The position numbers and the translations under genes are program-made. Positions 7,916 to 38,212 of a DNA stretch of 61,106 bases are shown here, piece by piece (position 1 is the stretch's first letter; every line of letters begins with the position of its first letter). The DNA is from an uncultured Aureimonas sp. (GTDB lineage Bacteria; Pseudomonadota; Alphaproteobacteria; Rhizobiales; Rhizobiaceae): contig NZ_CAJYIU010000107.1 of NCBI RefSeq assembly GCF_913775355.1, forward strand, positions 1 through 61,106, read 5' to 3'. The notes beneath the pieces were generated by a model. It ran no database searches and was not told the origin of the DNA. It saw only the letters and a program-made list of their open reading frames with translations.

Positions 7916-8200
7916 ACCTCAGAAACAGGGGCCTTATTCCACGCCGATTCACATCGGACCGTTCGAAGCGATCGATGAGCCCGGACCGAGTATGCCTAGT
8001 CGATGACGTCCGCTGCTCGTTCAGCCCAAAACGAAGCGGGCGGGAACCGTCGTGGTCCTGACGCGTCGCTATAACTCGCTCACATGCGACGAAAACGTCA
8101 TTCGAAACAATATCTTGCAAATCCGAAATTCATGGCTGCGCATGGGTTAGACGCACGAAGTTCGCTCAGAATCTCGCCCGGAACGACATGCAGCGGCAAC

Positions 8201-8256: not shown

Positions 8257-10083
8257 TCAGGGAATATCTGACCGCCTGTACAGCGTCGCGTCGAGAACGG
8301 AGCGCTCGACGACAGGCTCGACGCCGGCCGCGGCAAGTTCCTTCTTCACGCGGAGGGAGTGGACGCCTCGGCTCGCCGCCAGTCCATGAAGAAGGACATA
8401 CTCCCTCCGGAAACGTGCGAGCTCGTCCCGCGTGACGACCCTCTGCGGGGCGTTCGTCACAGGGTTTGGAACGGTACTAGCTGCCATCAGACCGAGATCG
8501 ATCAGATTGGCGACGACCTTCGTCGACGTCACCAACTCGCGCTCGACCTCGCGCAGGGTCATGCCGCCGTGATCCGGCCGGACGACATGCGGCCTGATCT
8601 CGTCGACGTCGACGAGGACCGACAGGAAGCCGCGCTCGTCGTCGCCAGCCGCGACCCGTTCGAGCCTGCCGTCCAGCAGCAGGCGCAGGATCCGGATCGA
8701 GTCGCAGCAAGCGATGCGGGCCGCCTTCGGAATGGTGGCCATCCGGGTGTCGGGGACGATGCCGCGGTCTGCACGCTCCCGAAGCGAAGCGGAGAAGGCG
8801 TCGAGATCAGTGCGTCGGAAGGCGTGACTTCCCAGCGCGTCTCCTCCGCCCCTGATCATCGGACGAATGTAGCCAGCTGCCACCAGTTCGCGGTCCAGGG
8901 GACGCGGGATCCCGAGGTAGGCGGCGGCCTGCTTCAGCGACATCGTCCCAGCGATGGTCGAGACGAACTCCTCGGCAACCTGCGCGTCGATCATCACCCT
9001 GTCGTCGGAGAGACCGGCATCCGCTTCGATCAGTCCCCTTTCCCGCAGCAGCTTGCGGAGACGCTTCGGATGCAGTCCGGACTCGAGCGAGACCGAATGG
9101 ATCGAATGGAAGCGGCGCGTCGGGAACGCGCGGCCGAACATCTCGTCGTCGGGGCCGACGGGCAGCGTCTCAGCAGCATGCGTCACCATCAGCGAACGCA
9201 TCGGTTCGTATGCCGGGTCGTCGCTCTCGTGCGCCAACCATTCGTACAATCGGCCGTACATCGCCTTCGGACCCCAGGTCGTACGTCCTCGCACGAACTT
9301 CTGCTGCAGGCGTTCCAGCAGGTCCCGCAGTCCCGTCTCGCCGCGGTCGAGGATCGCGAAGCCCGCGGCCTCGCTCTCCCAATAAGCGTCGGCGTCGAGC
9401 GATGTCAGGGCGACACCCGGACCGTGAACGTCGACCGCCCCGACGACCCCGGTCAGGCGGAGTGCCGCATGGAGGGGAAGGGCGTCGAGCCATGGGGAGG
9501 ACGATCGGCCTGCCAGCCGCCCGCGCACGTAGGTCTCGAAGGGTGACGGACCACGACGCGTCGTCGATGCGATCAGCTTGTCGAGGTGGGGCAGTGCGCC
9601 GGCGAGGGCTCGCGACGTGTCGTGCGAACGGGCCGGCAGGGAATCGACGCCGAGGTCGACGAGCGCGAGTTCGTGCGCAGGGCACGTGCGGACGGCGAGG
9701 ACGATCCATTCGCTTCGCCGCCAGGGCCGGGCGGACAAGCGGACCTCGTGTCGGGTCACGTCTTCCGCAAGGCATGCCGGGCAGACGCGCACGCGATCGC
9801 GTGCGAGGTTTCGGCGGACCAGCGTCTCGTCCTTGTGGACGTACCGGTGCGGGACGGTCGTCCTGACGAACGCCTCCGCCTTAAGGCGTGCTGCATCCGC
9901 TCCTGCAAGGTCCGCCAGACGGTCGACAGCAAGAGCGTCGCCATCAACGATGCGCTGATAGTCCAGCGCGAAGTCGCCGCAGAAGTCGCGAAGATCGTCG
10001 CGGCAGCAACGGTGGGCCAGTCTGGAGGCGAAGTCGGACGGCATCTCGCTTTCGCCCTGCCGCAGTTCGAATGCCAGCCTCAT
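8257..10083 (-). CDS. tniQ: TniQ/TnsD-family transposon target-selection protein
   Basis: N-terminal TniQ signature (FELRQGESEMPSDFASRLA; CPACLAEDVTRHEVRLSARPWRRSEWIVLAVRTCPAHELALVD); 4-bp overlap with the upstream TnsC-like gene. Confidence 0.85.
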   Translation of the reverse strand: MRLAFELRQGESEMPSDFASRLAHRCCRDDLRDFCGDFALDYQRIVDGDALAVDRLADLAGADAARLKAEAFVRTTVPHRYVHKDETLVRRNLARDRVRVCPACLAEDVTRHEVRLSARPWRRSEWIVLAVRTCPAHELALVDLGVDSLPARSHDTSRALAGALPHLDKLIASTTRRGPSPFETYVRGRLAGRSSSPWLDALPLHAALRLTGVVGAVDVHGPGVALTSLDADAYWESEAAGFAILDRGETGLRDLLERLQQKFVRGRTTWGPKAMYGRLYEWLAHESDDPAYEPMRSLMVTHAAETLPVGPDDEMFGRAFPTRRFHSIHSVSLESGLHPKRLRKLLRERGLIEADAGLSDDRVMIDAQVAEEFVSTIAGTMSLKQAAAYLGIPRPLDRELVAAGYIRPMIRGGGDALGSHAFRRTDLDAFSASLRERADRGIVPDTRMATIPKAARIACCDSIRILRLLLDGRLERVAAGDDERGFLSVLVDVDEIRPHVVRPDHGGMTLREVERELVTSTKVVANLIDLGLMAASTVPNPVTNAPQRVVTRDELARFRREYVLLHGLAASRGVHSLRVKKELAAAGVEPVVERSVLDATLYRRSDIP

Positions 10084-11192
10084 CGATGCACCCCTCTAGT
10101 ACGGCGGCCCTTCAGCTTGCGGCCGCCGAGGACGCTCCCTTCGTCGTCGACGACCTCTTCGTAGAGCGACGTCTCGACGGAAATCGAGGCCCAGTTCCGG
10201 GACAGGAAGACATTCATGTCGTCATCGAGCTCGCCAGTGCGGAGCGAGTAGACGTCCGCGAAATGGACTGCGGAGAGGGCGCTCTCTCCGGCCGTCAGGC
10301 ATTCACCGATCGCGTCCTGGATGTACTCGACCAGAATCCCGAACTGGCGCATCGCCGCGTGCAGCAGCCTGTTCGCAAATTCGTCCGTCATGACCGTCGT
10401 GCAGTTGACGGACGGACAGGCCTCGCCGATCCGGCGCGCCGTGTCGCGGATCGTCTCCACATGATCGGGAAAGCGCAACGGCTCGAAGCGCAGCACGCGC
10501 ACCCGGCGCTTCATGCTCTTGTCGTCCTGGCAGAACCGGGCCAACTCGGGCAGTCCCGACAAGATCAGCCAGACGAGCCAGTCCTCCTCCTGAAGCATCC
10601 GCTTCAAGGTGTTCTCGACTTCCCGAAACGCGACCTGGTTCACGATCTCGTCGCCGTGCTGGGCCTCGTCGATGTGCAGGATCCTGACGCCACGCTCCTT
10701 CAGCAGTTCGCGGACGACCGGCCAGACCTTGCTGTGCTGAATGTCGCGGCGTCCCTCGTAGCCGGAGCGGCGGACGATCGCGTTGCCCAGAGCCCCGAGC
10801 GTGAACGGCGACGGAGCGACAACCGAGTCGACCGGGCTCCATGCACCCTCGATACCGTAACCGGCGAACTCCGGCCGGTTCCTGAGCGCATGGTCGATCG
10901 CCGCCGACTTGCCGGCGCCCGCCTCGCCGGTCACGACCAGAACACGCCCGCCCCGGATCATTCCCCGGGGCGTCGCCGCTCCGTTGCGGCATTCGAGTTC
11001 CAGGAGCATCGAATCCAACAGCCAGTCGAGCTGATCGTTCAGGTCGGCGTCGTAAGCCGTGGGGAGGTGGACCGACAGGACGTCTCCCATGATCTGAGCG
11101 ACCGAACGGCGCTTCTCGTTCTGGTTGCTCCGGATGCGATCGAGGAACGCCTCGGACTTCCTGGACGGGGTGAGGGGATCGGTTTTGCTCAT
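10080..11192 (-). CDS. TniB/TnsC-family AAA+ transposition regulator
   Basis: Walker A VVTGEAGAGKSAAIDHALRN; Walker B RILHIDEAQHGDE. Confidence 0.88.
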   Translation of the reverse strand: MSKTDPLTPSRKSEAFLDRIRSNQNEKRRSVAQIMGDVLSVHLPTAYDADLNDQLDWLLDSMLLELECRNGAATPRGMIRGGRVLVVTGEAGAGKSAAIDHALRNRPEFAGYGIEGAWSPVDSVVAPSPFTLGALGNAIVRRSGYEGRRDIQHSKVWPVVRELLKERGVRILHIDEAQHGDEIVNQVAFREVENTLKRMLQEEDWLVWLILSGLPELARFCQDDKSMKRRVRVLRFEPLRFPDHVETIRDTARRIGEACPSVNCTTVMTDEFANRLLHAAMRQFGILVEYIQDAIGECLTAGESALSAVHFADVYSLRTGELDDDMNVFLSRNWASISVETSLYEEVVDDEGSVLGGRKLKGRRTRGVHR

Positions 11193-11194
11193 GA

Positions 11195-13564
11195 TCAGTC
11201 CTCCTTCAAAAAATCGGCACCGTGCCGACCGCGACGACGCCTGACGGGTGCGTGCGTCACGCCATCCTCCTCGACGTCCCCGTGCTCCCCAGCATCGTCG
11301 GAAGCGGAAGGATCGTCCTTCGCAGCGGCCGCCTCCGCTGCATCGTCCTCGTCGTCCAGCCCTTCGAACGTTCGACCGCGCCGGTCCGAAACGACGATGT
11401 CGAAGTGCTTGAATTGCTCCTTCTCGATCTGCAGGATCTCATCTCGCGACGTCGTCGACGGGCCGATGCCTGCAGCCCTGGCCGAAGCCTTGCCGGCGAT
11501 GCGGAGATCCCGGAGTGCGGCGAGAACGATCGGCTCGCGCAGCTTGGCCGTCGAAGCGTGGCGGCGCCGCAGATCGGCGGCTGCCCCGAGCCATTCCTCG
11601 ACGCAGACGCCCGTCATGTCGGTTTCGCAGGGGACGGTGAACCACCGCGAGCCCGGCTTGTTCCTGCAGACCGAGATGGCGCCGAGGTCCGAGAGATCGA
11701 CGCGAATCCTGACATCCTCCTGTCCGACATCCATGCGGAGCCTGCCGAGTTCCTTCGAGCGGTAGCGCAACCCGAGGAAGCGGATGCCGCGGTTCTGGAT
11801 GCGGCGGGTGTCTGCGAAACCGAAGACCGCACGCAGGACCTTCGCGGCCGGCGGGGGGATCAGGCCGTAGCGTGCCGTCTTCTCCTCCCATGCATCGTTC
11901 GGTGTCTGACCGCCCAGACCGGCGTGCGGGCTGTTCAGGTAGACGTCGACCAGGTACCGCACGAGAGACTTGCCGAGCACCTCCACGACGACGTTCGCCG
12001 CTGCTCCGGGGTCGTAGTCGCCCTTCTCCCCGACACCCGAGAAGGTGCGCCCCTGAAAGAACTGCGCGAACTGCACGTCCAGGGTCGCGAAGAAGCGCTC
12101 GACCCACGGGCGGGCATCCGGATGCCTGGCCGGGCCGATCACGTTCACGGCGCCGATGTCGCGGATCGCCCAGCGGACGTTCGCTTCGATGTTCTCCGGT
12201 CCGGAGTCGAACGGTACGCTTTCCGGCGTGCATGCATGGTGCCACGTCGATCGGCAGCCGGCCGCTGCGGCGATATCGCTCTTGTCGCGACATACCATCT
12301 CGAGCGTCCGCAGGACCGTGTCCGAGTCCGCGTTGACCGAGAGGCGTACGCCGAGAGGCACCTTCGTCGCCTCGCAGACCGCGACGCAGGCGTTCAGTCG
12401 GAGCGCCGCGAGTCTGCCGATCAGCTCCTTCGGCAACCCGGCCCAGGCCTGCTGCGGCAGTTTCGTCATCATGAGCTGGAAGCGCCATGAGTCGATGGCG
12501 ACCCGTTCGCCGGCAGCCATCGCGGCCTCTCGACGGCCGGCGATCTTGAAACGGCGCCGGGCCTGCTGGATGCCGTATCGGGCCGCGCAGACCTCGAACG
12601 GGTCGAGTCTGCGGACGGCGCGTTCGAAGGTCGATCGTGAAGGGATCGGCAGCGGCGGGAGGCCTTCCGTCCCGCGCCGTGCGTTGACCACCGCGAAGGT
12701 CTCGAGGTCCTCGACGGCAAGCGCCGACCGGCCCTGAGAGTCCCGCCTGGCATTGACGTCTTCCACGTCGACGGCCCCCAGCATCAGCTTGTAGAGCATC
12801 GCCATCGTCGGCCGGGTCCGGTCGAGATAGGCGCGCACCCAACCTCCCATGACGGCGAGCGACAGGGGTTCGGTGATTTTGGGAGCCCGATCGCCGCAAC
12901 GCCCCTTGCGATGGTCGCGAAGCGACAACTCGTCCCAGTCGTGCTCGATCAGGACGGCGATCCAGCTCCGCAAGGTGGACGGCGAGGGGGCGTTGAAGCT
13001 CCTGTGGACCTGTCGGGCGGCCGTGCGGCGGACCTTCGCCTGCACAGGCGGCGACTTGCATCGGCCGCGACCCTTGACGCCCCTGCCACGTTCGGGGAAT
13101 TCCCGCTCCTCCTCGTAGATGCCGAAAACGATCTCCGCCATGACCTTCGGGATCGCCCGCAGGAGCGCCTTGTCCGTCTTCGACGTGAGCCCGGCTTCGT
13201 ACATCTCCTGGATGCGTCGGCAGAGCCTCGCATAGAAGACCAGTGCTTCCCGCTCCTCGTCGGGCAGATCGCGCCCCGTTTCGATGTCGGGGTTGCGGGC
13301 GGCGGTCCGGCGACGGGCGTCTCCCTCCCGGTCCATGCGCGGGTCCACCTTGTCGTCCCCGACCAGGATGCCGAACTCGTTCTGGGTGAAGAACTGCGTC
13401 AGCCCCGGTCGGCCGACGGGCTCCACCTCGAGGAAGTGCTGATCGTGGCCGACATGCTTGTAGAGGATCTCGTCGGGATCGCTGACGGCGAAGACGTGAC
13501 CTGCCGGGAAGCCGTAGGTGGTCCGGGCGGAGCGATGGACGGCGGTTCCGTTGAAGACGGACAT
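11195..13564 (-). CDS. TniA/TnsB-family DDE transposase (Mu/integrase-core type)
   Basis: DDE-type positions ...RVAIDSWRFQL..., ...PFDSGPENIEANVRWA..., ...PWVERFFATLDVQFAQFF...; Mu-transposase C-terminal region. Confidence 0.9.
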   Translation of the reverse strand: MSVFNGTAVHRSARTTYGFPAGHVFAVSDPDEILYKHVGHDQHFLEVEPVGRPGLTQFFTQNEFGILVGDDKVDPRMDREGDARRRTAARNPDIETGRDLPDEEREALVFYARLCRRIQEMYEAGLTSKTDKALLRAIPKVMAEIVFGIYEEEREFPERGRGVKGRGRCKSPPVQAKVRRTAARQVHRSFNAPSPSTLRSWIAVLIEHDWDELSLRDHRKGRCGDRAPKITEPLSLAVMGGWVRAYLDRTRPTMAMLYKLMLGAVDVEDVNARRDSQGRSALAVEDLETFAVVNARRGTEGLPPLPIPSRSTFERAVRRLDPFEVCAARYGIQQARRRFKIAGRREAAMAAGERVAIDSWRFQLMMTKLPQQAWAGLPKELIGRLAALRLNACVAVCEATKVPLGVRLSVNADSDTVLRTLEMVCRDKSDIAAAAGCRSTWHHACTPESVPFDSGPENIEANVRWAIRDIGAVNVIGPARHPDARPWVERFFATLDVQFAQFFQGRTFSGVGEKGDYDPGAAANVVVEVLGKSLVRYLVDVYLNSPHAGLGGQTPNDAWEEKTARYGLIPPPAAKVLRAVFGFADTRRIQNRGIRFLGLRYRSKELGRLRMDVGQEDVRIRVDLSDLGAISVCRNKPGSRWFTVPCETDMTGVCVEEWLGAAADLRRRHASTAKLREPIVLAALRDLRIAGKASARAAGIGPSTTSRDEILQIEKEQFKHFDIVVSDRRGRTFEGLDDEDDAAEAAAAKDDPSASDDAGEHGDVEEDGVTHAPVRRRRGRHGADFLKED

Positions 13565-16615: not shown

Positions 16616-18763
16616 TCAATCCGAGGAGCAGGACTGCGGCGGAAGCGGCGACGTGCACGGACGGATCTCGAACGGCGGGATCTCTGCGAGCAGCGGGGCG
16701 ATCTCCGCTTCGACGAGGTGGCCTGCATCGAGCAACCGTGTCGCCAGGCGCTCGATCGCGAAGCGTTCGCGGCGGACGAGACGCTCCGCCTCCGCTTCGG
16801 CATGGCGCAGGACCCGATGGACGGCGATCATCGATCCGGGCGGGCTGCCGAGCGCGGACAGGCCGTCGGTCGGATCGCCGTGCCAGAGCGGGCCGACGTG
16901 ACCGAGGCCCCAACTCAGTTCGTACGCCATCGCGATGCCGGTCGCCTTCGCGAGATCCGATGCCTTGGTCCCGCCGGCGCCAGCGGACGGAGAGCCGAGG
17001 AAGACCATCTCGCCGGCCCGACCCGCGAGAACGCTGACGATGTCCCTGATCGCACGGTCTGCCGTTACGATCTGCGTGCGCGGTGTCAACTGGATCGAGC
17101 CTCCGGCATCGCTGAGCGTCAACGATCCAATCGTACCGACACCGAGAGCTGCAGCCGCGCAGGCATGCGCGGCTTCGTGGATCGCGCAGCGATGGAGATC
17201 CTCCTCAGAAAGGTCGCTGCGGCTGCTCCGGACTGCTTCAAGCAGATCCTCCACGAGCAGCTTGCGTCCGGCGCGCCTCGCGGTACCGCGTGCTCTTCGG
17301 CACCACGACGCAGCGTCCGCTCCGCTTCCTCCGGTCCCCGCCCGTGCGACGGGCATCAGATCGGCGCCATTAAGGTCCGATCCCAGGCATGTCCTCAGGA
17401 TGCCCACCATTTCGACAGGATCGGGCAGGTCGATCCAGACTACGCGGTCTATCCGTCCGGGACGAACGATGGCCGGATCGATCATCCGGACGTGGTTCGT
17501 CGCGCCCAGGACGACGACGCCCTCGCGATCGCCGACGCCGTCGAGCTGCTCCAAGAGGCCGTTCACGACCTGGATGGAATAGTCACGGTGGCGGTGTTCG
17601 AACGTCGACCTGTCGCCGAGCGAATCCAGTTCGTCGATGAAGAGGACGCACGGCGCGGCCGCCCGCGCATCCGAGAAGGAGCGACGCATCGACTTCAGGA
17701 GATCGCCGAGGTGGCCGGCGGCCTGCCACTGCGCGAGGGAGGCGGAGACGAGCGGCAGGCCGGCCGAATGTGCGAAGACCCTCGCGAAGAACGACTTGCC
17801 GACGCCCGGCGGGCCGGCGAGGAGCATGCCGCGGTCGATGTCCCGCCAGCCGAGTCGTCCGTCGCGGTATGCCTGAAGATCGGCGATCAGATCGAGCCCG
17901 ATCCCCTTCGCCTCACCGTAGCCGGACAGGTCTTCGAGCCGAGGCAGTCCCGCCGAAGTCGCTAGCCTCTTCTCAACGATCCACCGGAGCCGTTCAAGAG
18001 AGCCGGCCCCGCCGCGACGACGCGAGACGGACGACCTGAGATCGTCCAGCGCAATGCTGCCGATCCACGGACCGTTCGGAACCTCGATCACCGATCCCGT
18101 GACGGCCTCGATCACGAGACTGACGGCTTGTCCGGTCCACCGACCGAACTCGAGGACATGATCGGCCGTGGTACGGATGCGCTTCGGAACGCCTTGCTGC
18201 GGGTCCGTCGAGACGGCGCAGATCGGGACTCCGAGGGACATCGCACGAACGGCCCAGTCATCGAGCTCGTCGCGTTTCCTTACGGCGTCGCACGGCATGA
18301 CGACGGCAGCCCGTCGGTCTGCGCGTAGGCCGGCCAGCTTGTACATCGTCGACCCGTCCTCCACGAGCGGGGTCGTCCGGCCGAAGACGCATACCGAAAG
18401 CACGCTCTTCACCGAGGCCAGAAGGTCTTCGTCGGGCAGACGGACGACGACGACGGGCGCGGCCGTACGGAGCGCACGCAGCACGCCGGGCTCGGCTTCG
18501 AATGCTGCGGCCAGAAGAACAGCCGTCGTCGCGACGTCTACTGACAGGCCGATCTCTTCCGTCACGGGCGCATCGGACGCGTCGACCATCGTACCGAACT
18601 CCGGCAGGTCGTCGAGATCGGGCACGGGATCGCCGCCCGTCATGACCGAGTGGATCCGCGCCGTGTCGGCGAGCAGCAGATCGACGAAGCGTCGCCCGAG
18701 CGTCGGGGACTGTGCAGGATCGGGCGTGGGCTCGTCTCGATTGGGTGCTTTCAAGGCGTGCAT
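16616..18763 (-). CDS. AAA+ ATPase fused to M41 (FtsH-like) zinc peptidase, no evident N-terminal TM segments
   Basis: Walker A LLAGPPGVGKSFFARV, Walker B CVLFIDELDSLGDR, SRH region ATNHVRMIDPAIVRPGRIDR, zinc motif HEAAH, SAGAGGTKASDLAKAT. Confidence 0.85.
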   Translation of the reverse strand: MHALKAPNRDEPTPDPAQSPTLGRRFVDLLLADTARIHSVMTGGDPVPDLDDLPEFGTMVDASDAPVTEEIGLSVDVATTAVLLAAAFEAEPGVLRALRTAAPVVVVRLPDEDLLASVKSVLSVCVFGRTTPLVEDGSTMYKLAGLRADRRAAVVMPCDAVRKRDELDDWAVRAMSLGVPICAVSTDPQQGVPKRIRTTADHVLEFGRWTGQAVSLVIEAVTGSVIEVPNGPWIGSIALDDLRSSVSRRRGGAGSLERLRWIVEKRLATSAGLPRLEDLSGYGEAKGIGLDLIADLQAYRDGRLGWRDIDRGMLLAGPPGVGKSFFARVFAHSAGLPLVSASLAQWQAAGHLGDLLKSMRRSFSDARAAAPCVLFIDELDSLGDRSTFEHRHRDYSIQVVNGLLEQLDGVGDREGVVVLGATNHVRMIDPAIVRPGRIDRVVWIDLPDPVEMVGILRTCLGSDLNGADLMPVARAGTGGSGADAASWCRRARGTARRAGRKLLVEDLLEAVRSSRSDLSEEDLHRCAIHEAAHACAAAALGVGTIGSLTLSDAGGSIQLTPRTQIVTADRAIRDIVSVLAGRAGEMVFLGSPSAGAGGTKASDLAKATGIAMAYELSWGLGHVGPLWHGDPTDGLSALGSPPGSMIAVHRVLRHAEAEAERLVRRERFAIERLATRLLDAGHLVEAEIAPLLAEIPPFEIRPCTSPLPPQSCSSD

Positions 18764-19239: not shown

Positions 19240-19620
19240 AAGCTACGTGATGGCCAGGCCGTCGATGCAGTTGGCGCTGCTCGGCGGCCGATCAGGGACG
19301 TCAGGGAGGATATGCGAATCGCCCGACCGCCGACGATCTAATCACGATCGGTCTGAAAGCAAGTTCATCGATCGAAGCGAGTCGATCGTGGTTAACGGAC
19401 TCGGTGCGGCTTCGTTATACTGCTGTCCAAATAGCCGTTTTCCACAATCGGTGCGCGTTACTGCACCACCTTGGCGTGTTTCTGCATCCTGATCAATGGG
19501 TCGGGTGCCGAACAAGAGCGAAAATCCGATGTCGCGTCCGTTGCAAGGTGAAATCATCTTGCATTAGCATCCTACATCTTTCGGTCCTCCTGCGGCTAAA
19601 GACCGATCACCGTACTTTAT

Positions 19621-19691
19621 TCACTCGCGACCCAGCCGTCTCCAATTTCGTGAACCGCATCGGTGCCGTTCTGGCCAGCGGAGCGGGCGTG
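19621..19691. repeat. Left imperfect direct repeat (candidate att-derived remnant of a lipoprotein gene 3' end)
   Basis: tcactcgcgacccagccgtc-tccaatttcgtgaaccgcatcggtgccgttctggccagcggagcgggcgtg, roughly 80% identical by eye to 23601-23672, same orientation. Confidence 0.75.
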
Positions 19692-19759
19692 CGGCCGTCG
19701 CAGCTGAGCTTCCGGAGCAGGGGATCTGATCAGCACGCCACGCCAGTCTTCGTTGAATT

Positions 19760-20101
19760 TCAACTCCGATTCAGCAGCTCATCGATGGCGTGGATCGCCC
19801 GAGAAAGAGCGTCTCTCGCAGCAGACATCTCCAGGGTCAGCGACAGCTGCTCCCGACCTGCCATGGACAGGACGGTCCTCAGCACTTCGTCCGAATTTTT
19901 CATCAGCATCACGAGGTGACGTCCGTCGGGTCCACGCGTGCCTTCGATCCAGTACTTGACCGATCGCTCGCTGGCACCGGTCCAGTGCATGACGATCTTC
20001 GTGGCACCGCTTCTCGGTCCCAGCTCGGCCAGCAATGCCTTCGAAACGGCGACCGCGTAGGCAGAACAGGGTGGAACATCCGTGCCCTTTTTCGGCATCA
20101 T
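19760..20101 (-). CDS. Small HTH-like DNA-binding/hypothetical protein divergent from the recombinase
   Basis: GATKIVMHWTGASERSVKYWIEGTRGPDGRHLVMLMKNSDEVL resembles an HTH; divergently placed. Confidence 0.5.
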   Translation of the reverse strand: MMPKKGTDVPPCSAYAVAVSKALLAELGPRSGATKIVMHWTGASERSVKYWIEGTRGPDGRHLVMLMKNSDEVLRTVLSMAGREQLSLTLEMSAARDALSRAIHAIDELLNRS

Positions 20102-20135
20102 CGTCCGTCTCCTTTTAAATTACGCTGCATTCTCC

Positions 20136-21725
20136 ATGGCCGAGTCCGGGGAGCCCTTGCGGACGATGGTGATCGACTGGAACCAGGCAGAACCGGATGG
20201 GACGCTCATTAGAGCCGCTCAATACGTGCGGATGTCCACCGAGCACCAGCGCTACTCGACCGACAACCAGTCCGCGTCGATCCGAAACTATGCCGAAGCC
20301 CGCGGATACGAGATCGTCAGGACCTATGCGGACGAAGGCAAAAGCGGCCTCGACCTGAAAGGACGGACCGCGCTCCGCCGCCTCCTCGACGACGTCGAAA
20401 ACCGCAAATCCGACTTCACGGCAGTCCTGGTCTACGATGTCAGCCGGTGGGGTCGCTTCCAGGATCCCGACGAGGCAGCGGAGATCGAACTACGTTGCCG
20501 GCGCGCCGGTGTCGCGGTGCACTACTGCGCCGAGCAGTTCGAGAACGACGGCAGCATCGGATCGTCGATCGTCAAGACCGTGAAGCGGGTCATGGCGGGG
20601 GAGTATGTCCGGGAACTCTCGGTCAAGGTCTTTGCCGGACAGGCGAACCTGATACGGCAGGGCTTCCGGCAAGGCGGCGCGGCCGGCTTCGGTCTGCGCC
20701 GCATGCTGGTGGACGAAACCGGTGCGTCCAAGGGCGAGTTGCGCTCGGGGCAGCAGAAAAGCATTGCGACGGATCGCGTCGTCCTCGTACCCGGACCCGC
20801 CGACGAGGTCGCCGTGGTGAAGGAACTGTATGCCCTGTTCGTTTCCAACCGGATGTCGGAAACCGAGATTGCGATCGAGTTCAACCGTCGCGGCATTGCG
20901 AACGAAGGCGGACGTGCCTGGACGCGGGGGACCATCCACCAGATCCTGATCAACGAGAAGTACATCGGCCACAACGTGTGGGGCCGCACGTCCTTCAAGC
21001 TCAAGAAGTCGCGGTCGAAGGTGCCGTCGAGCGCGTGGATCCGGTCCGACGGGTCTTTCGAAGCCATCGTGGATCCGGCAGCCTTCCAGGCTGCGCAGGC
21101 GATCATCCGAGCCCGTTCGGAACGGTTGTCCGACGCGACGATGCTGCAGCTGCTGGCCGCCGCGTTCGAACGTCACGGTCAGCTGTCCGGTCTCATCATC
21201 GATGAGACCGAAGGCTGCCCGTCGAGCGGATGCTACGGCCAGAGGTTCGGGTCGCTTCTGCGTGCCTACGCACTGGTCGGCTTCGTCCCCGACCGGGACT
21301 ACCGGTACCTCGAGATTAACAAGGCCATTCGTCGGATGCATCCCGACGTCTTCGAACAGGTGCTGCGGGGCGTCGCGACCGTTGGCGGCAAGGTGGACAG
21401 GGATCCATCCACAGATCTCCTGACGATCAACGACGAGTTCACCGTCTCGTTGGCCCTCGTCAGGTGCTGCACCACGTCCGCCGGCTCCCTCCGGTGGAAG
21501 GTCAGGCTCGACGCCTCCCTGTCGCCGGATCTTACCGTCGTGGTGCGCATGGATCCGCCCAACCGAAAGCCGATGGACTTCTACCTGCTGCCCCGGCTCG
21601 ACATGCATGAAGCCGTTCTCCACCTCTGCGAGTACAACGGCCTGTCGCTGGACGCCTACCGGTTCGACACGCTCGACCGCTTCTTCGCCATGACCGCTCG
21701 CACTTCGATCCAGGAGGTGGCCTGA
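20136..21725 (+). CDS. Large serine recombinase (resolvase/invertase N-terminal + Recombinase domain)
   Basis: AAQYVRMSTEHQRYSTDNQSASIRNYAEARGYEIVRTYADEGKSGLDLKGR...; DVSRWGRFQD; Recombinase domain region IAIEFNRRGIANEGGRAWTRGTIHQILINEKYIGHNVWGR. Confidence 0.93.
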   Translation: MAESGEPLRTMVIDWNQAEPDGTLIRAAQYVRMSTEHQRYSTDNQSASIRNYAEARGYEIVRTYADEGKSGLDLKGRTALRRLLDDVENRKSDFTAVLVYDVSRWGRFQDPDEAAEIELRCRRAGVAVHYCAEQFENDGSIGSSIVKTVKRVMAGEYVRELSVKVFAGQANLIRQGFRQGGAAGFGLRRMLVDETGASKGELRSGQQKSIATDRVVLVPGPADEVAVVKELYALFVSNRMSETEIAIEFNRRGIANEGGRAWTRGTIHQILINEKYIGHNVWGRTSFKLKKSRSKVPSSAWIRSDGSFEAIVDPAAFQAAQAIIRARSERLSDATMLQLLAAAFERHGQLSGLIIDETEGCPSSGCYGQRFGSLLRAYALVGFVPDRDYRYLEINKAIRRMHPDVFEQVLRGVATVGGKVDRDPSTDLLTINDEFTVSLALVRCCTTSAGSLRWKVRLDASLSPDLTVVVRMDPPNRKPMDFYLLPRLDMHEAVLHLCEYNGLSLDAYRFDTLDRFFAMTARTSIQEVA

Positions 21726-22615
21726 TGACGGCCGTACCTGCCCAACGCGTCGAGATGATCGATCTCGACCGCATCGTCGTCGTCAACCCCAGGTCGCGCA
21801 ACAGACGCATCTTCGACGAAATTGTCGACAACATCGCCGAGCTCGGTCTCAAGAGACCCGTCACGGTTTCCCGGCGGATGGAGGCGGACGGACCGTTCTA
21901 CGATCTGGTCTGTGGGCAAGGTCGCCTGGAGGCGTTCCGTGCGCTCGGGCAGAAGGAGGTTCCTGCGCTCGTCGTGAACGCCTCGGAGGAGGACTGCTTC
22001 ATCGCGAGCCTCGTCGAGAACTGTGCCCGACGCAACCACCGGTCGATCGATCTCCTCCAGGACGTCGCCGGCATGAAGGAGCGCGGTTACAACGTGCCCG
22101 AGATCGCCCGCAAGACCGGGCTGTCCGCCGAGTACGTCTACGCCGTCGTCCGCCTCATCGAGAACGGGGAGGAGCGGCTGCTGCGAGCGGTCGAAGCCGG
22201 GCAGATTCCTTTCAGCGTCGCGCTCCAGATCGCCGATACGGACGATGCCGGCGAGCAGGCGGCCCTGCAGGAGATCTACGACCAGAACCTGTTACGCGGT
22301 CGAAAATTCCAGGACGTCAAGAAGCTGGTCGAAATTCGGCGCCAGAAGGGGAAGGGGCTGAAGACGCAGAAGAAGTCCGGCGACGTTCCCGTGTCCTCGG
22401 CCATGCTCGTGAGGGCCTATGAGAAGGAGAGCGCGAGAAAGAGGCTGCTGATCCGCCGGGCGGAAACGGCGAAGAACAGGCTGACCTTCGTCGTAGAAGC
22501 GGTAAGACGCATCTCGTCCGATCGGACCTTTCTGGTGCTTCTGGCCGAGGAGAAGCTCGACACGATGCCGGAGCCGCTCGCGAACAGGCTCGCCAGAGGC
22601 GGATCGACGAGATGA
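21725..22615 (+). CDS. ParB/RepB/Spo0J-family protein
   Basis: IDLDRIVVVNPRSRNRRIFDEIVDNIAELGLKRPVTVSRR...VCGQGRLEAFRALGQKEVPALVV...; start overlaps the recombinase stop. Confidence 0.88.
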   Translation: MTAVPAQRVEMIDLDRIVVVNPRSRNRRIFDEIVDNIAELGLKRPVTVSRRMEADGPFYDLVCGQGRLEAFRALGQKEVPALVVNASEEDCFIASLVENCARRNHRSIDLLQDVAGMKERGYNVPEIARKTGLSAEYVYAVVRLIENGEERLLRAVEAGQIPFSVALQIADTDDAGEQAALQEIYDQNLLRGRKFQDVKKLVEIRRQKGKGLKTQKKSGDVPVSSAMLVRAYEKESARKRLLIRRAETAKNRLTFVVEAVRRISSDRTFLVLLAEEKLDTMPEPLANRLARGGSTR

Positions 22616-23502
22616 ACGCCCGGAGACAGGTCGGCCCGGTGAGGGTGGCGTTCGAGGATACCAGCCTGCGGATGGACCTCACCGACATACTCCCTCTGCG
22701 GATGGTCTCGGCGGATGTCGTCAAGTCCGCGAAGTATGCGCAGATCGCAGCCTCGATCGAGGAGGTCGGCATCATCGAGCCCCCTGTCGTCGTCCGCGAC
22801 AAGAAGAACCACGACAAGTTCCTGCTGCTGGACGGGCATTTGCGGATCGATATCCTGAAACGCAAGGGCGTGACGCATACGGTCTGCCTGATCGCGAAGG
22901 ACGACGAGGCGTACACCTACAACAAGCGCGTCAACCGCATCGCAGTCATCCAGGAACACCTGATGATCCTGAAGGCGATCGAGAAAGGGGTGCCGGAAGA
23001 CCGGCTGGCTCGTGCACTGAACGTGGACGTCTCCAGCATCAGGCAGAAGAGAAATCTCCTGAAGGGCATCTGTCCCGAGGTGGTCGAGATGCTGAAGGAC
23101 AGGCATGTGCCGGTCAACACGATCGGACATCTCCGGAAGCTGAAATCGGTCAGACAGATCGAAGCCGTCGAACTGATGATTGCGATGAACCGCTTCACCA
23201 TCAGCTACGCGGCCTCTCTCGTCGCGGCGACACCTGCAGCGCAGCTCGTCGATCGGCGCAAGCCGACGAAGGGCCTCGGGGAGATCGAGATCGGCATGAT
23301 GGAGCGGGAGTCCGCGGCGCTCGACCGCGAGTTCAAGACCATCGAGCAGGACTACGGATCAGACCATCTCGACCTCGTCCTCGCCGTGGCATACGTCGCC
23401 CATCTGCTGACGAACGCCAGGGTCGTCGGATACCTGGCCCGGCACTTCCCGGACATCCTCGGCGAGTTCCAGAAGATCGCGGACCTCCAGAAGGCTGCCT
23501 GA
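22612..23502 (+). CDS. ParB-like protein with RepB C-terminal-type region
   Basis: ASIEEVGIIEPPVVVRDKKNHDKFLLLDGHLRIDILKRKG...; second ParB-like gene overlapping the first by 4 bp. Confidence 0.85.
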   Translation: MNARRQVGPVRVAFEDTSLRMDLTDILPLRMVSADVVKSAKYAQIAASIEEVGIIEPPVVVRDKKNHDKFLLLDGHLRIDILKRKGVTHTVCLIAKDDEAYTYNKRVNRIAVIQEHLMILKAIEKGVPEDRLARALNVDVSSIRQKRNLLKGICPEVVEMLKDRHVPVNTIGHLRKLKSVRQIEAVELMIAMNRFTISYAASLVAATPAAQLVDRRKPTKGLGEIEIGMMERESAALDREFKTIEQDYGSDHLDLVLAVAYVAHLLTNARVVGYLARHFPDILGEFQKIADLQKAA

Positions 23503-23596
23503 AGCCGCGACTACAGGCAGACCCAGAGGGCGGCATATGCGATCGTGTTGGCTCTTCCTCCAGTTCGATCGCGATCGGCATACTTGCTTTGCCGGA

Positions 23597-23914
23597 CTAC
23601 TCGCTCGCGACCCAACCGCCATCGACCTTCGTGAACCGCATCGGCGCCGTTCTGGTCTGCGGTGCGGGCATGTAGCCGCCAGACGCCGTGACGGTGATGT
23701 CGCAGACATAGGTTGCTCCTTGTTGAAGCGTGCACCCATGCTTCGCTACGTCGGTCGCGACGAGCGGCTGCGGCGCACGCTTCGCGATGACCTTTCCGAG
23801 CTCGACCATGAAGGCCGATACCGATGTCCGTATCTCAGATTCGGACGGCTCTCCCGAACAGCCGGCCAGAAGCAGGGGAGCCATCATCATTCCGAACGCG
23901 AAGCGCTTGTTCAT
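23597..23914 (-). CDS. Putative lipoprotein
   Basis: MNKRFAFGMMMAPLLLAGCSG lipobox; short secreted ORF. Confidence 0.7.
   Translation of the reverse strand: MNKRFAFGMMMAPLLLAGCSGEPSESEIRTSVSAFMVELGKVIAKRAPQPLVATDVAKHGCTLQQGATYVCDITVTASGGYMPAPQTRTAPMRFTKVDGGWVASE
23601..23672. repeat. Right imperfect direct repeat (3' end of intact lipoprotein gene)
   Basis: tcgctcgcgacccaaccgccatcgaccttcgtgaaccgcatcggcgccgttctggtctgcggtgcgggcatg; pair of 19621-19691. Confidence 0.75.
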
Positions 23915-29121: not shown

Positions 29122-30081
29122 TTAGCTACCGAGTCGGTTTTCTCCAAATATTTCTTCATCAAACGATGAAATCCCGAAAACCATGTAATTGAACTCGGTA
29201 ACTTCCTTTCCAGTTCTTTGATTGTACAACCTCGAGCGCTCATTATCCCAGACGCAACTGGAAAGAGGAATCGTCGACTGATCACCACCTTGTGCGACGA
29301 TGTAAGATCCAAGACGCAACCGTGGCGATGTTTTACTTCCGGTGAAGTCAAAGCCCATCTTGAATTGATGAACTTCTTGGTTCTTGGGCCCGTTGATCAA
29401 AAATTTGATTACACCCCCAGCCGTAAGTGCCAAGGGCGCAAGAGCCGGCTGGGCGGTGCTGAGCAACGATAATCCTTTCTTATAAATTTCACTATCAAAT
29501 ATACCCATAAGAGCGTCGTCTGATGTAGATCCGACGTAAACCGTCCTTCCGGAAAGCTGTATACCGTTCTTACCTACAGTAAGTCCAAGGAATAAGGGGA
29601 GACCAGTGATGCCTGCGCTGTCCTGATTTTGCACTGTAAGTGTGGCAGCGAAATGTATAGGCTCAGAAGAGCCCGCAATTTGGTTCTTTCCTTGAAACTC
29701 GCAAAGTATGCTCTGCTTCCCGCGACCAGGATATTCAGCTGCATAGAAGTGGTCCAAGGTGACCTTGATTCGGGTGCCTGCAAGGCTCGGATCGGCGGCA
29801 ATTCGATTGCCGGTCAAAACGCGGCTTACTGAGCCACTTCGATCGTCGTCTATGAGACCGTAGGCCACACCGGTCGCCGTGTACGGTGAGTTTCCGAAGC
29901 CGAGGAAGCCTTGACCTGTGCCGCCTGCCGCAGCAATGTTGTCAGCCGCTTCATGGTTTCCGATTTCTCGCAGGAAGGCGACGACGACCTCAGGAGCCTG
30001 TTCTCCCAAGCTGGACCCCGGTGGGAAAGGCTCGAATTCCTCGTCCAGATCCAGCTCCTGAACTTTGGTTCTCGAGGTCAT
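29122..30081 (-). CDS. Hypothetical protein translationally coupled to the S8 protease gene (candidate third component)
   Basis: 319-aa ORF whose ATG overlaps the protease stop codon (ATGA at 30078-30081); no recognised domain. Confidence 0.75.
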   Translation of the reverse strand: MTSRTKVQELDLDEEFEPFPPGSSLGEQAPEVVVAFLREIGNHEAADNIAAAGGTGQGFLGFGNSPYTATGVAYGLIDDDRSGSVSRVLTGNRIAADPSLAGTRIKVTLDHFYAAEYPGRGKQSILCEFQGKNQIAGSSEPIHFAATLTVQNQDSAGITGLPLFLGLTVGKNGIQLSGRTVYVGSTSDDALMGIFDSEIYKKGLSLLSTAQPALAPLALTAGGVIKFLINGPKNQEVHQFKMGFDFTGSKTSPRLRLGSYIVAQGGDQSTIPLSSCVWDNERSRLYNQRTGKEVTEFNYMVFGISSFDEEIFGENRLGS

Positions 30082-32717
30082 GGTCTCACTCTCCTGCGCA
30101 CAGGCGTCCTGCTTCTGCCGCGTTCACGCGCCTGTTCACGCAACGCTTCGTTTACCTGCTCGTAGATGTTCTGCGTAACGAGTTCACCAACTTCGATCGT
30201 CGCAACCAGAGCGTACGGAACTTCTGTTTCCTCGAACCCTGATTTAGCCATCGCCTGAACGCCGACCCGCATGGTCTCTTCCGCCGCGATGGACTGAATG
30301 CTGCCGCCTTTCAGCCGAACACGCCGGAGAGTCCCTTTTGCGCTCATCTTCGGCGGTGGCTGGACGACCTGGCCGCTCTCTACGCCGGACCAGAATGAGG
30401 TTTCGGACTTCGTGGCACCGGTCAGCATGAGCTTGACCGCTCTGTGATTGGCGGCCCGAGGACGCAAGGGCGTCATCCATGCCAGCGTCAAGTCGATCTC
30501 TCTCACCTCTTTGATGCCGTGCAACCCCTCAGGCAAAGGTATGTCGTACTCGTGGCGATCATCGTTTCGGATGAGCCCCTCGGCCAGCATCGTTACCCTA
30601 CGTCGAGATCCGTCGATTACCCGCTCGACGGAGCACTCGCCATATCCGATTACTCCGGCTGCATTCCCTCGCCTCTTTTGCCAGTTCGTCCCGAATGGGT
30701 CACGCAGACTCTCGAGAACGCTTCCGGCTTCGCCCCAGCGGGCACCGTGGGCGACGAGAGCCTTGAGGACCGCAGCCCGGGTAGGTTTATCGAACCATTC
30801 GGTCTCATCATCGGGCTCATGCTCGATCGCATCGTCCAGCGACTCTGCGAGCCATCCGAGCATGCGCGTCGTCAATGCGGCTGAATTGCTCGTTCCGCTG
30901 CACCTCCGTCGAGCGTCGCTCAACAGGCCCGTGCCATCGGGTACGGCAGTCAGATGCCCCAGCTGTGGATTTGAAAGACCTCTTGCCAGAAGCTTGCTTC
31001 CATCCTTCCGGGATGCAACCAGTTGCCTTCCGCCCGGCACAACAAAATCTGGTTTGACGCTGCCTCCAAGACCGGGACCGATTGAAGAGTAGACACTGGC
31101 AGCACCCGCCAACTCGAAGGGATCGTGAGGGAAAGAAGTGCTCGCATGATCGAAATGGAGGGCGCCGATCGTCAGGCCGTTGATCGCCTCGGCAGGCGAT
31201 ATGATCCGACGCCTTTCACGCGATCGATGTAGTGCTCCGATGAGATCGGACGAACGTTTGGCTTTATCGCCTCTCTGGAATGCCTGAGGGCTCGGATAGC
31301 CGTCTATTTCAAATTCGGAGCGAATGTTTCCTGCACTCGTCACGAACAACACGTTATGATCGAACATCAGCTGATCGAGTAGGCGAGCCCACGCTGATGG
31401 AAGCCTCGTAAACTGGCGATTCTCGTCGCCAAGGCTATGATTGAATACGATGAGACTAGGAGCTGCCGGCTCTCCGTCGTCAAGTCCGACCAGCATCGCC
31501 TTGACGGCACGCTCTACGATCTTGATCGCGAGACGATCGGGGGGAGTGGTCTCGCGGCCGAGCTTGTCGAGCTTCAGGACCGGAATGCATGCGACGCGTC
31601 TCGGAAGCGTTCGCTGGGTATGGTCCTGAAGATCTCCATGCAGGATGAGCGAGGCCATCTGTGTGCCGTGAACGCGACCATGGAGCGGAACGTCTTCTCC
31701 GAGGATGTCGACGGTATGTACGTCTACACGACCTCGCAGGTAATCGTGGTTGGCGACTGGAAAGCCGTCCAGGATCCCGATGAGAGGGGAGCGCTCGTCC
31801 GCTTCACCAAGACGGCGTGTCATGGGTATCGCGGCGTCGTCGTCATCTTCGCGATCGAAGGAAGCAAGCGACTGAGGTCGGATCGACATGACCTCTTCCG
31901 CTGATGCGAGAGATCCTTGCCGTTCGACCAAGGTGCGAGCCGTAGCTGGCGATAAGGATACCAGGACACCGTGGTACTGGATGGCTTCGATGACGGCTTC
32001 GTCGAGGATCTGCGCATCGTCCTCGGATAGGCTCTCGAAGAACGACTCGCGCCGACTGTTTCGGACCTGTCTTCCCTCTCGAAACCATAGGTCGATCTCG
32101 AGAACGACAGGCTGATCGGGGGCTTCTCGGAGTCGTCGCTCGATGTAGTCGACCGTAGGCGCCTCGATCCTGTCCCGGGCATCCCACGTCCGCAACGACG
32201 CGATCAGCGGGAAAAGCTGCCACCAACCTCCAGCACCTTCCTTGGGAGCGTTCGGTGAACTCTTGAACGCGTCCCACAGCTTCAAAAGTTTACGAAGGGA
32301 CGCCTCGTTTGGCATCGATACGTAGAGATGACCTTCACTGGATGGCTGTCTGGACCCCGGGTCGACTACTGGTGTCTCGTCCTCATCGAGATCGTCCAAA
32401 CTTTCGCCCAAGTATTCGAAACCCACCTCGGCCGCAGATTTTGCGAAATCTGCAAGAGGCCCGAGAACCTTCAGAACGATAGCACGGTCCGGCCCGATTT
32501 CGGATGGATCATCAGAGATGCCGGGGGAGGCGGTGGCGGCGTTAAGTTTCTGGCGGATTTTTCCGAATGGCCCATCCAGCCTCTGAATCTGAGTCAATCG
32601 TGAAAAGCCTGGAGCCGGCGTGACTCTACTGCCCGGTATCCTTTCGGCGACGCCCTTCCTTCTTACGAGGCGTATGATCGGGAAGCTCTGAGGATCCTTC
32701 GCCATCTGAGATCGCAC
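30078..32717 (-). CDS. S8 (subtilisin-like) serine protease, IetS-like
   Basis: Catalytic triad contexts ILDGFPVANHDYL (D), HGRVHGTQMASLI (H), CSGTSNSAALTTRM (S). Confidence 0.88.
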   Translation of the reverse strand: MRSQMAKDPQSFPIIRLVRRKGVAERIPGSRVTPAPGFSRLTQIQRLDGPFGKIRQKLNAATASPGISDDPSEIGPDRAIVLKVLGPLADFAKSAAEVGFEYLGESLDDLDEDETPVVDPGSRQPSSEGHLYVSMPNEASLRKLLKLWDAFKSSPNAPKEGAGGWWQLFPLIASLRTWDARDRIEAPTVDYIERRLREAPDQPVVLEIDLWFREGRQVRNSRRESFFESLSEDDAQILDEAVIEAIQYHGVLVSLSPATARTLVERQGSLASAEEVMSIRPQSLASFDREDDDDAAIPMTRRLGEADERSPLIGILDGFPVANHDYLRGRVDVHTVDILGEDVPLHGRVHGTQMASLILHGDLQDHTQRTLPRRVACIPVLKLDKLGRETTPPDRLAIKIVERAVKAMLVGLDDGEPAAPSLIVFNHSLGDENRQFTRLPSAWARLLDQLMFDHNVLFVTSAGNIRSEFEIDGYPSPQAFQRGDKAKRSSDLIGALHRSRERRRIISPAEAINGLTIGALHFDHASTSFPHDPFELAGAASVYSSIGPGLGGSVKPDFVVPGGRQLVASRKDGSKLLARGLSNPQLGHLTAVPDGTGLLSDARRRCSGTSNSAALTTRMLGWLAESLDDAIEHEPDDETEWFDKPTRAAVLKALVAHGARWGEAGSVLESLRDPFGTNWQKRRGNAAGVIGYGECSVERVIDGSRRRVTMLAEGLIRNDDRHEYDIPLPEGLHGIKEVREIDLTLAWMTPLRPRAANHRAVKLMLTGATKSETSFWSGVESGQVVQPPPKMSAKGTLRRVRLKGGSIQSIAAEETMRVGVQAMAKSGFEETEVPYALVATIEVGELVTQNIYEQVNEALREQARERGRSRTPVRRRVRP

Positions 32718-33696
32718 CTCGACTGTCTGAGGTGCGATCCAGCCAGCGGTGCACGACTCGTTCCACGATAGGTATAATGTCGGACCGATCCTTCGTCAGC
32801 ACAACTCTCCGTCGGATATCGGCCAACATTTTTTCGACTTCCGCGAAGCTGATACCTTCCAGGCCTTCGGCAACCAAGCTGATATCGAAGGAATGGTCTA
32901 CTCCCACCTTCCGCAACATCTTGCCAATCCATCGCTCGATCTGCTTCCGATCGGGCAATGGAAGATCCAAGGTCAGGTCGAAACGACGCCAGACCGCCCT
33001 GTCGAGCATCTCGGAATGATTGGTCGCTGCGATAACGATCGTGGACGACGGCAAGGCATCCATCTGGACCAGGAGTGACGACACGATGCGTCGCATCTCC
33101 CCGCTCTCATGTGAATCGGCTCGCTCTTTTCCGATGGCGTCGAATTCGTCGAAGAATAGGACGCAGGGCAACGAGGCACAGTATTCGAACACGTGTCGCA
33201 GTCTGCCCGCCGTTTCGCCGAGATAGCTGCCCACGAGAGCTTCGTATCGTACGGTCAGGAACGGCACGCCAACCTCTGCAGATACGATCTCCGCCAGGCT
33301 CGTCTTACCCGTTCCCGGTGGCCCGGTCAGCAGCAGCGATCGTCGGGGTTCAAGCGAATGAGATCGCAGGAGATCTGTCTCCCGCTGTTCCTGGAGAAAG
33401 TCCGCGATATCATTCCTGGTCGAAGGGTCGAGGAGTAGGTCGTCCAGCTGCCTCACGGCGGGACGTTCGATAAGAAGGTCGCGGACGTTCTCTGGAAGGA
33501 AAGTCAGAGATCCGACATCGGCCGATGGTCGAGGACCCTTGGACGGATCGAAGACGCTCGCGTATCGACGTGCCAGCGTGTGCTGCTGTTTCGAGCGCGC
33601 ATCCTCGGCCAGGGCCTCCAGCGTTCGCTGCAGGAGGCCTCTGTCGTTCTCGACGCCAGCTTTCGCCAACTTGAGGACCAGATCGCTACGACTCAT
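32626..33696 (-). CDS. AAA+ ATPase, IetA-like
   Basis: Walker A LLLTGPPGTGKTSLAEIVSAE, Walker B CVLFFDEFDAIGKER, sensor IVIAATNHSEMLDRAVWRRFD; overlaps and precedes the S8 protease gene. Confidence 0.88.
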   Translation of the reverse strand: MSRSDLVLKLAKAGVENDRGLLQRTLEALAEDARSKQQHTLARRYASVFDPSKGPRPSADVGSLTFLPENVRDLLIERPAVRQLDDLLLDPSTRNDIADFLQEQRETDLLRSHSLEPRRSLLLTGPPGTGKTSLAEIVSAEVGVPFLTVRYEALVGSYLGETAGRLRHVFEYCASLPCVLFFDEFDAIGKERADSHESGEMRRIVSSLLVQMDALPSSTIVIAATNHSEMLDRAVWRRFDLTLDLPLPDRKQIERWIGKMLRKVGVDHSFDISLVAEGLEGISFAEVEKMLADIRRRVVLTKDRSDIIPIVERVVHRWLDRTSDSRGAISDGEGSSELPDHTPRKKEGRRRKDTGQ

Positions 33697-34461: not shown

Positions 34462-36018
34462 TCAGACGTAGAACTTGAACGGCTGGCGTTCCTCGCCCTT
34501 GGCCGATCCCATCGTCAGAACGTCGCCGACCATCCGGGCGAAGCGGACTGTTACCGGTAGCCCGTCGTTAAAATTACACGAATTGTAATTGATCTTCGTC
34601 AGTCCCATTATATCCCGCAGTACGGTGGCGATCTTTGGCCTTGCGTTCTTAGACCGCATTACGGTGATGTGGAGCGGATTGGGCGTTTCAGGCCCGATGT
34701 AGGTGTCCAGCTGCGGCACGTAGCCCGTTGTCCAGAGATAGGCCGACCTGTCATCAAGAAGTAAAGCCGTGCCGCGCAGGACGGGATAGTCGCCGTCCCT
34801 GAAGAGCTTGGTCTCACCACCGGTCGGACGGATCCTTACCCCGACGACGTTTGTCTCCTTTGGCGCTGCGGCGGCGAAAGCTTCCCACTCCTCGTCGTTG
34901 AAGTATGTCTGTCCGTGAATGAACAGTTCTTTCGGTGGTGAACCATGCTGTTCGCCATACGTCTTCAGGACGAGCTCGAGCAGGTTCCGCGCGGCCGGAG
35001 CCTTTAGATGATACTCATGCTCGCCCGTTTTCCAAGGTCCATTGGCGCCGCGGAACACGACGCCGTCGCCCTCGTCGAGAAACATCTGTGCAGCGCAACA
35101 GGCGTGTCCGTCGGGATCGTTCGGCAGGCTCTTGTAGACCATGCCGATGTAGCACACGCCGGGCCGCACGTCCGCCAGCCGCCACGGCGGTTTCGGCTGC
35201 GTCTTGTAGTAGAGGCCGGTCGCGAGGTTCCAGGCGACCGTCGCCGCATCCTGGGTCTTGCGGATGGGATAGTTGGCCTTATTGAGGAAGGCGCCGGGCG
35301 CGAGTGTCGTCTCACGCACCAGCTGGGTCGGCGCGATCCTCAGGAACTCGGCTTTGATCCTGCGATGGAAGTCCGGAACGTCCTCGAAGATCGCCTCGCC
35401 CGACTGATCTATGGCGCCCATCGCAGATAGCAGCGGCAGGTCTTCCTTCATCTTCTGTCGCTTCCTGAACTCACCTTGCTCCATGGGAAGTCCGGAACGC
35501 TTGGACTGCGGCCGGCAGCGTTCGTAGACGATGTCCGGCAGGACCAGGACCCACACGTCGACCGACCGCTCGTCGTTGCGCCGATGCTTCTCCACGCGAT
35601 CGATGTATAGGCGAGCGACCGTGTCGACCGCTTCGTTCAGGTTGAAGATGCGCGTGGCGCGCTCAATGTCCTTCGCCTGGATCGAAAGCGCGCTGAACTC
35701 GTCTGGATCGAACGATATCCCGAAGGCTTCATCGAGGCCGGGGAAGTTCGCCAGGTGCAGGCGATCGACCTTCTCGCCCTTTCCCGGCGGCGGAACCGGG
35801 ATGGAAGACTGTAGATCGCGCGACCATGTGCGGAAGTGCGCGATGCCTTCGTCCGTGCCGACGACGCCGACGCGGATCTCGTGCGTCCGCTTCGCCTTCG
35901 CATGCGGGCCATACAGGAACAGGCCATCCTTTGGGTGGGGGCTGCGCTGTGCGTATGCGAATTCCAGCAGCGGCTCGTCGAAGTGCTCGACCTGGAGCGA
36001 TCTCTCGGGAAACTTCAT
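34462..36018 (-). CDS. Short prokaryotic Argonaute (MID-PIWI)
   Basis: N-terminus [27 protein letters not shown]-terminus [53 protein letters not shown]...[36 protein letters not shown]...FYV, typical of short pAgos. Confidence 0.92.
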
Positions 36019-37937: not shown

Positions 37938-38212
37938 TCGTCCAGGTTGAGATGCCTTCCGAAAGCGGTCAAGGATCCCGGGAGACGAATGCGTCACGGA
38001 ACTGCCTTGCCAACAGGAAGAGGATCCGGCGTCCGGTGGCGATGCGACGAAATGTGGCTCCCACGTTCCGCATGCTTCGAGCGGAGTCATGGGTTGAGGT
38101 CGGTCATGGTCCGAAGCGGAACGCCTCTTGTTGCGTCCCGGATTTCCTCGTCCAAGTTCGCCTGAGGATCCGGCCCGGAATTGCTTGCAGAGCGATGAGG
38201 TTGATACTCGCC

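Follow-up and report, generated by a model that had tools for sequence, protein, structure and literature searches.

Gene content of the locus

The window, by which we mean the whole analysed stretch of 61,106 nucleotides from an uncultured Aureimonas species, contains a module of four genes (referred to as the unit) lying between two copies of the 3' end of a lipoprotein gene:

19618..19697, minus strand: left repeat, the 3' stub of a lipoprotein-type gene with a frameshift, covering the stop codon and about 27 codons before it
19698..19759, no strand: stretch expected to contain the unit's left end, judging from the copy in comM (L042) and the boundaries of sister copies
19760-20101, minus strand: small divergent HTH-like gene, 113 aa, with a homologue in 88 of the 101 loci that have the recombinase-RepB-RepB trio
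20082-21725, plus strand: serine recombinase with Resolvase and Recombinase domains and a family-specific C-terminal region
21725-22615, plus strand: RepB/ParB-like protein 1 (RepB1), with ParB_N and PF07506
22612-23502, plus strand: RepB/ParB-like protein 2 (RepB2), with PF07506 and a weak ParB_N; its model has a ParB/Noc/KorB-like fold
23503..23596, no strand: stretch most likely to contain the unit's right end; the RNA of about 110 nt found in other copies is absent here
23597-23914, minus strand: intact lipoprotein gene, 105 aa, whose 3' end forms the right repeat (23598-23678)

The HTH-like gene, the serine recombinase and the two overlapping ParB-like genes are all present between the repeats as the original prediction had described them. 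The recombinase gene overlaps the RepB1 gene by 1 bp, which in turn overlaps the RepB2 gene by 4 bp, and the true start of the recombinase is probably located downstream of the GTG at 20082. From the comparisons given below we infer that the unit of the window extends from about 19.70-19.76 kb to 23.50-23.60 kb, with the lipoprotein gene ends outside.

Elsewhere the window encodes tniQ, tniB and tniA-like (Mu/TnsB-type transposase) genes of a Tn7/Tn5053-like transposon (8257-13564, minus strand), an IetS/IetA-like defence pair (30078-33696, minus strand; PADLOC E=1.7e-227 and 2.1e-122), and a short prokaryotic Argonaute beside a TIR/REase-APAZ protein, a SPARTA-like defence pair (34462-38090, minus strand). 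Given these tni genes and the Iet and short-pAgo pairs, the unit resides in an island-like region. To the left of the unit (16616-18763, minus strand) a 715-aa AAA ATPase with an M41 peptidase domain is encoded, which is FtsH-like but scores far below the FtsH cut-off. Individual units, in L038, L040, L036, and L021, adjoin restriction, Dnd/phosphorothioation, or other defence genes.

Protein domains and comparison with known systems

All 37 recombinase members analysed contain the N-terminal resolvase catalytic domain (PF00239; E=1.7e-22 for the window) and the Recombinase or RD domain (PF07508), and none of them has a match to a zinc-ribbon Pfam domain. Their C-terminal region gives weak matches only, to HNH_repeat in two members and to HTH_62 in three. 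The Resolvase and Recombinase domains are shared with the large serine integrases (phiC31, Bxb1, SPbeta YokA, TP901-1, TnpX); PDB sequence and fold matches cover about 325 columns, the length over which the model of the recombinase (pLDDT 75.7, pTM 0.50) aligns with the SPbeta, Bxb1, and phiC31 integrases. A further possible likeness is the clean insertion with a very short common core in the comM case described below. Unlike these integrases, however, the unit's recombinase has no zinc-ribbon match, has its own C-terminal region, and is coupled to two ParB/RepB proteins. The SCCmec-type cassettes (CcrA/B/C) are similar in being inserted into the genome, and the recombinase distantly matches CcrB and CcrC, but it reaches only 59 bits compared to the curated CcrB cut-off of 900. 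In SCC cassettes the target gene retains its 3' end, whereas the resolved insertion of the present family interrupts comM in the middle of the gene without restoring the frame, and the accessory proteins are ParB/RepB-like.

The two RepB proteins contain PF07506 (7.5e-44 and 5.6e-21), and the RepB2 model (pLDDT 78.4, pTM 0.43) resembles KorB, ParB, and Noc, with which the sequence matches agree. They share PF07506, ParB_N, and the Noc/ParB/KorB-like fold of RepB2 with the partition proteins of RepABC and ParABS systems (RepB, ParB, Noc, KorB). In contrast to those systems, the unit has no ParA/RepA or RepC partner, and its two RepB-like genes are arranged in tandem and overlap the recombinase gene. 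Transposons of the Tn402/Tn5053 type (tniABQ and the resolvase tniR) were also compared, because tniABQ genes are found near a few copies, including the window, where they are 6-10 kb away. However, any tni match occurs in only seven of the 101 loci within the fetched flanks, and the unit moves without tni, so that the tni genes were rejected as regular partners.

Conservation and distribution of the family

With its four genes, the module represents a single copy of a self-contained jumping unit that is widespread and about 3.9 kb long. Scanning plasmids with the recombinase resulted in 116 matched records, 60 of which cover at least 80% of the query, and species genomes contain at least 582 relatives, of which 80 were kept. 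Both RepB genes are present in fixed order in 101 of the 106 loci found via the recombinase; the remaining five are truncated at contig ends, or are in one case a degraded copy. The only conserved neighbours within the unit are the recombinase and the divergent HTH gene. Counting metagenome-assembled genomes, members occur in alpha-, beta-, and gammaproteobacteria as well as in a few further phyla. No description of this trio or family was found in the open-access literature searched, whose coverage leaves out most subscription journals.

Mobility and boundaries

That the recombinase-RepB-RepB module is a mobile unit is well supported. A copy of 3,887 bp (L042, 7467-11353) is inserted in comM/yifB of a Sinorhizobium K101 replicon, and the corresponding empty site with an uninterrupted comM/yifB is found in pSymB of S. 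meliloti Ak57 (L154) and in Shinella (L155). The junctions read CAATCTGCT|AACG... on the left and ...CACGTGCT|GATGG on the right, compared to CAATCTGCT|GATGG at the empty site. Both junctions have the 4 bp TGCT in common and no target sequence is lost; the crossover position is ambiguous within TGCT, and this evidence for clean insertion is one junction case at one site. The insertion hits the Walker-A codons in the middle of comM/yifB and restores nothing. Here the unit ends 18 bp past the stop codon of the divergent gene and 34 bp past that of RepB2.

The comparison of sister copies (L020/L052, L055/L058/L059/L063, and L068/L090) results in similar boundaries. Copies on Rhizobium and Aminobacter plasmids are 93% identical with unrelated flanks, and sister copies at different sites have DNA in common only from about the stop codon of the regulator to that of RepB2. 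On the right-hand side, sharing ends 0-8 bp past the RepB2 stop codon in sister pairs without the RNA, and about 110-130 bp past RepB2 in the RNA-bearing branches. Past the stop codon of RepB2, sister units share about 0 bp or, in the RNA-bearing branch, just the RNA of about 110 nt, so that the unit does not normally include a gene tail. Some branches have additional common DNA on the left, which presumably represents cargo or a common target. A tRNA was rejected as target because ARAGORN, applied to the window and to 98 loci, places no tRNA next to most of the units.

A covarying RNA downstream of RepB2

About half of the family contains a previously undescribed, strongly covarying RNA of about 110 nt. 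The sequence of about 106 nt is present in 47 of the 101 loci (e.g. L030:11739-11851 and L022:13361-13473), starts 1-74 nt past the RepB2 stop codon, and is more conserved than the genes. Its structure has 26 pairs, among which pairing reaches 98.2%, and 69 double-change cells were counted, compared to 17.9 +/- 3.1 after shuffling and at most seven when slid. In five loci no Rfam match reached the gathering score, with L030 giving only sub-threshold, chance-like hits. Searching 142 class-wide genomes with a covariance model revealed the RNA in five, and all seven copies in this unbiased set are located directly behind a RepB2 gene, which led us to reject the RNA as an independent target. On the recombinase tree, the members that have the RNA group together (13 changes versus 33.6 when shuffled). 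The window has no copy of it (best score 11 bits unfiltered, none with Rfam), and neither has its clade. Orphan copies without a detectable unit were observed at L156:6001-6103 and L158:6004-6107, and a second copy 5 kb downstream at L062:18490-18592; these may be remnants or may have moved separately.

The lipoprotein gene ends

The two copies bracketing the unit (19618-19697 and 23598-23678) are imperfect direct repeats, as had been noted by eye at about 80% identity; the alignment gives 81.5% over 81 columns with a single 1-bp gap in the left copy. Nowhere else in the 4.2-Mb assembly does the sequence occur. The repeat is not a product of chance, as only about 0.17 of 97 mismatched flank pairs (3-kb flanks) would be expected to reach its score. 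The right copy comprises the final approximately 27 codons and the stop codon of the lipoprotein gene, which encodes a signal peptide with an LLLAGC lipobox as read from the sequence. This gene can be regarded as intact, in line with the original prediction, because the same-genus genome G008 contains a full-length version with 68-69% identity. The left copy is indeed a frameshifted 3' stub; it has a 1-bp deletion, and the upstream part of the gene is absent. We judge it to be flanking DNA outside the unit.

The copies differ by 19%, including seven synonymous codon changes, several replacements, and the frameshift, compared to a difference of 25% between the right copy and G008, which serves as a between-species yardstick. 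A divergence of this extent with seven synonymous changes indicates that the copies were not generated together by a single recombination at a common core, and relative to the yardstick it argues against a recent att-type duplication. By their sequences, the copies look like two long-separated genes, one of which is now a stub. The right-hand three-gene block of the window is shared with G008, in which the other side is unrelated, and G008 has no DNA in common with the window left of 19618. An empty site for the window's own unit was looked for and not found, G008 being a relative for the right-hand block only. Neither was a second full lipoprotein gene found in the window's own lineage, nor a tandem lipoprotein pair in the genus, nor any match to the lipoprotein family in plasmids. 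Because both the empty site and the second gene were missing from these searches, we infer the ends of the window's unit and the origin of the stub.

Flank duplications within 3 kb are present in seven of 97 loci, and within 350/450 bp in two of 90, namely the window and L028. In these two the repeats are at similar distances, 57-63 bp on the left and 93-96 bp on the right, which could hint at something systematic. A protein-level search for more diverged duplications gave no clear excess beyond the window and L028. Some strong flank repeats were rejected as duplications because they are paralogous neighbours, such as the antitoxin-like genes in L107 and the repeat-domain genes in L084. The Roseomonas locus L021 resembles the window and counts in favour of the probable explanation given below: an integrase 3' stub ends 20 bp from the left gene of the unit, and a second 3' end lies 1.2 kb past the right end. 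In addition, a short gene tail (WRA...D..Y.Y(A/S)IAL) was observed beside several serine-recombinase loci (L088:9290-9342, L017:1005-1058); in L028 it is located on both sides of the unit (7994-8046 and 11982-12034).

Origin of the repeats and nature of the unit

The original prediction interpreted the locus as an integrative element that restored the reading frame of the lipoprotein gene with its own copy. Its first half is supported, as the insertion in comM compared to the empty sites and the sister copies in unrelated flanks indicate a mobile, site-specifically inserted unit, whereas the second half, an own copy of the target gene's end, is not supported. Such a unit would have inserted into the lipoprotein gene at its 3' end and put a tail carried at the unit's right end in its place, and the left stub would be the displaced native tail. 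The orientation of the repeats and the intact right-hand gene fit this scenario, as do the left-repeat edges close to the unit in the window, L028, and L021, and flank repeats that are rare yet above chance (7 versus 0.17 expected). However, sister units carry no tail, the comM insertion repaired nothing, the copies are 19% diverged with synonymous changes, and G008 is devoid of window DNA left of 19618. Att repeats had been expected beside homologous trios, but in the trio search most trios have no flanking duplication, which the prediction itself had named as speaking against it. We regard this scenario as decidedly unlikely. Alternatively, diverged lipoprotein genes in tandem might have undergone homologous recombination or a deletion independently of the unit. 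This would agree with a divergence near the between-species level and with the nearest edge of the left copy being up to 63 bp away from the unit's left gene; it is an unlikely explanation, and the lack of any observed tandem pair in the genus counts against it. The module might also not be a mobile unit of its own but serve a larger integrated plasmid or island as its maintenance or partition cassette, combining multimer resolution and RepB partition. Many copies are indeed on plasmids, RepB and ParB domains are present, and Sphingobium plasmids keep the module together with shared flanks, but a 3.9-kb copy sits alone in comM with known empty sites, near-identical copies have unrelated flanks, and the unit contains no ParA or RepC gene, which makes this very improbable.

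The probable explanation is a compact autonomous mobile element of four genes, for which the lipoprotein-end repeats are flanking DNA and the left copy is what decay has left of a second, diverged lipoprotein gene. The duplicated gene end is most likely such a remnant of a neighbouring gene and not a repair patch carried by the unit. In this element, the serine recombinase would cut and join at a short core, as in the comM insertion with its TGCT junctions. The two ParB/RepB-like proteins, by analogy to the ParB family, may act as DNA-bridging or clamp-like accessory factors that join the ends or set the direction, and the divergent HTH protein may repress the shared promoter region. The left copy would be the 3' end of a paralogue or a foreign allele, and either the insertion itself or a rearrangement linked to it could have cut this gene off at the unit's left end or close to it.

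Implications

For the family as a whole, the chances are about even that its members are minimal serine-recombinase transposable units for which the two ParB/RepB proteins are obligatory accessory factors, and that about half of these units also have a structured RNA at the right end, which perhaps functions in end recognition, target choice, or regulation of transposition; the window's branch would then be an RNA-less lineage. With the covarying RNA, the question arises whether an RNA plays a part in a serine-recombinase element. Current annotation pipelines label the genes of these units as plasmid partitioning protein, by which plasmid and island calls are misled. If confirmed, the units would represent a class of small mobile elements that is common in Proteobacteria and apparently has no name, combining a serine recombinase without zinc ribbon with twin ParB-like proteins, and a role of ParB/RepB proteins as transposition or synapsis factors would become directly testable.
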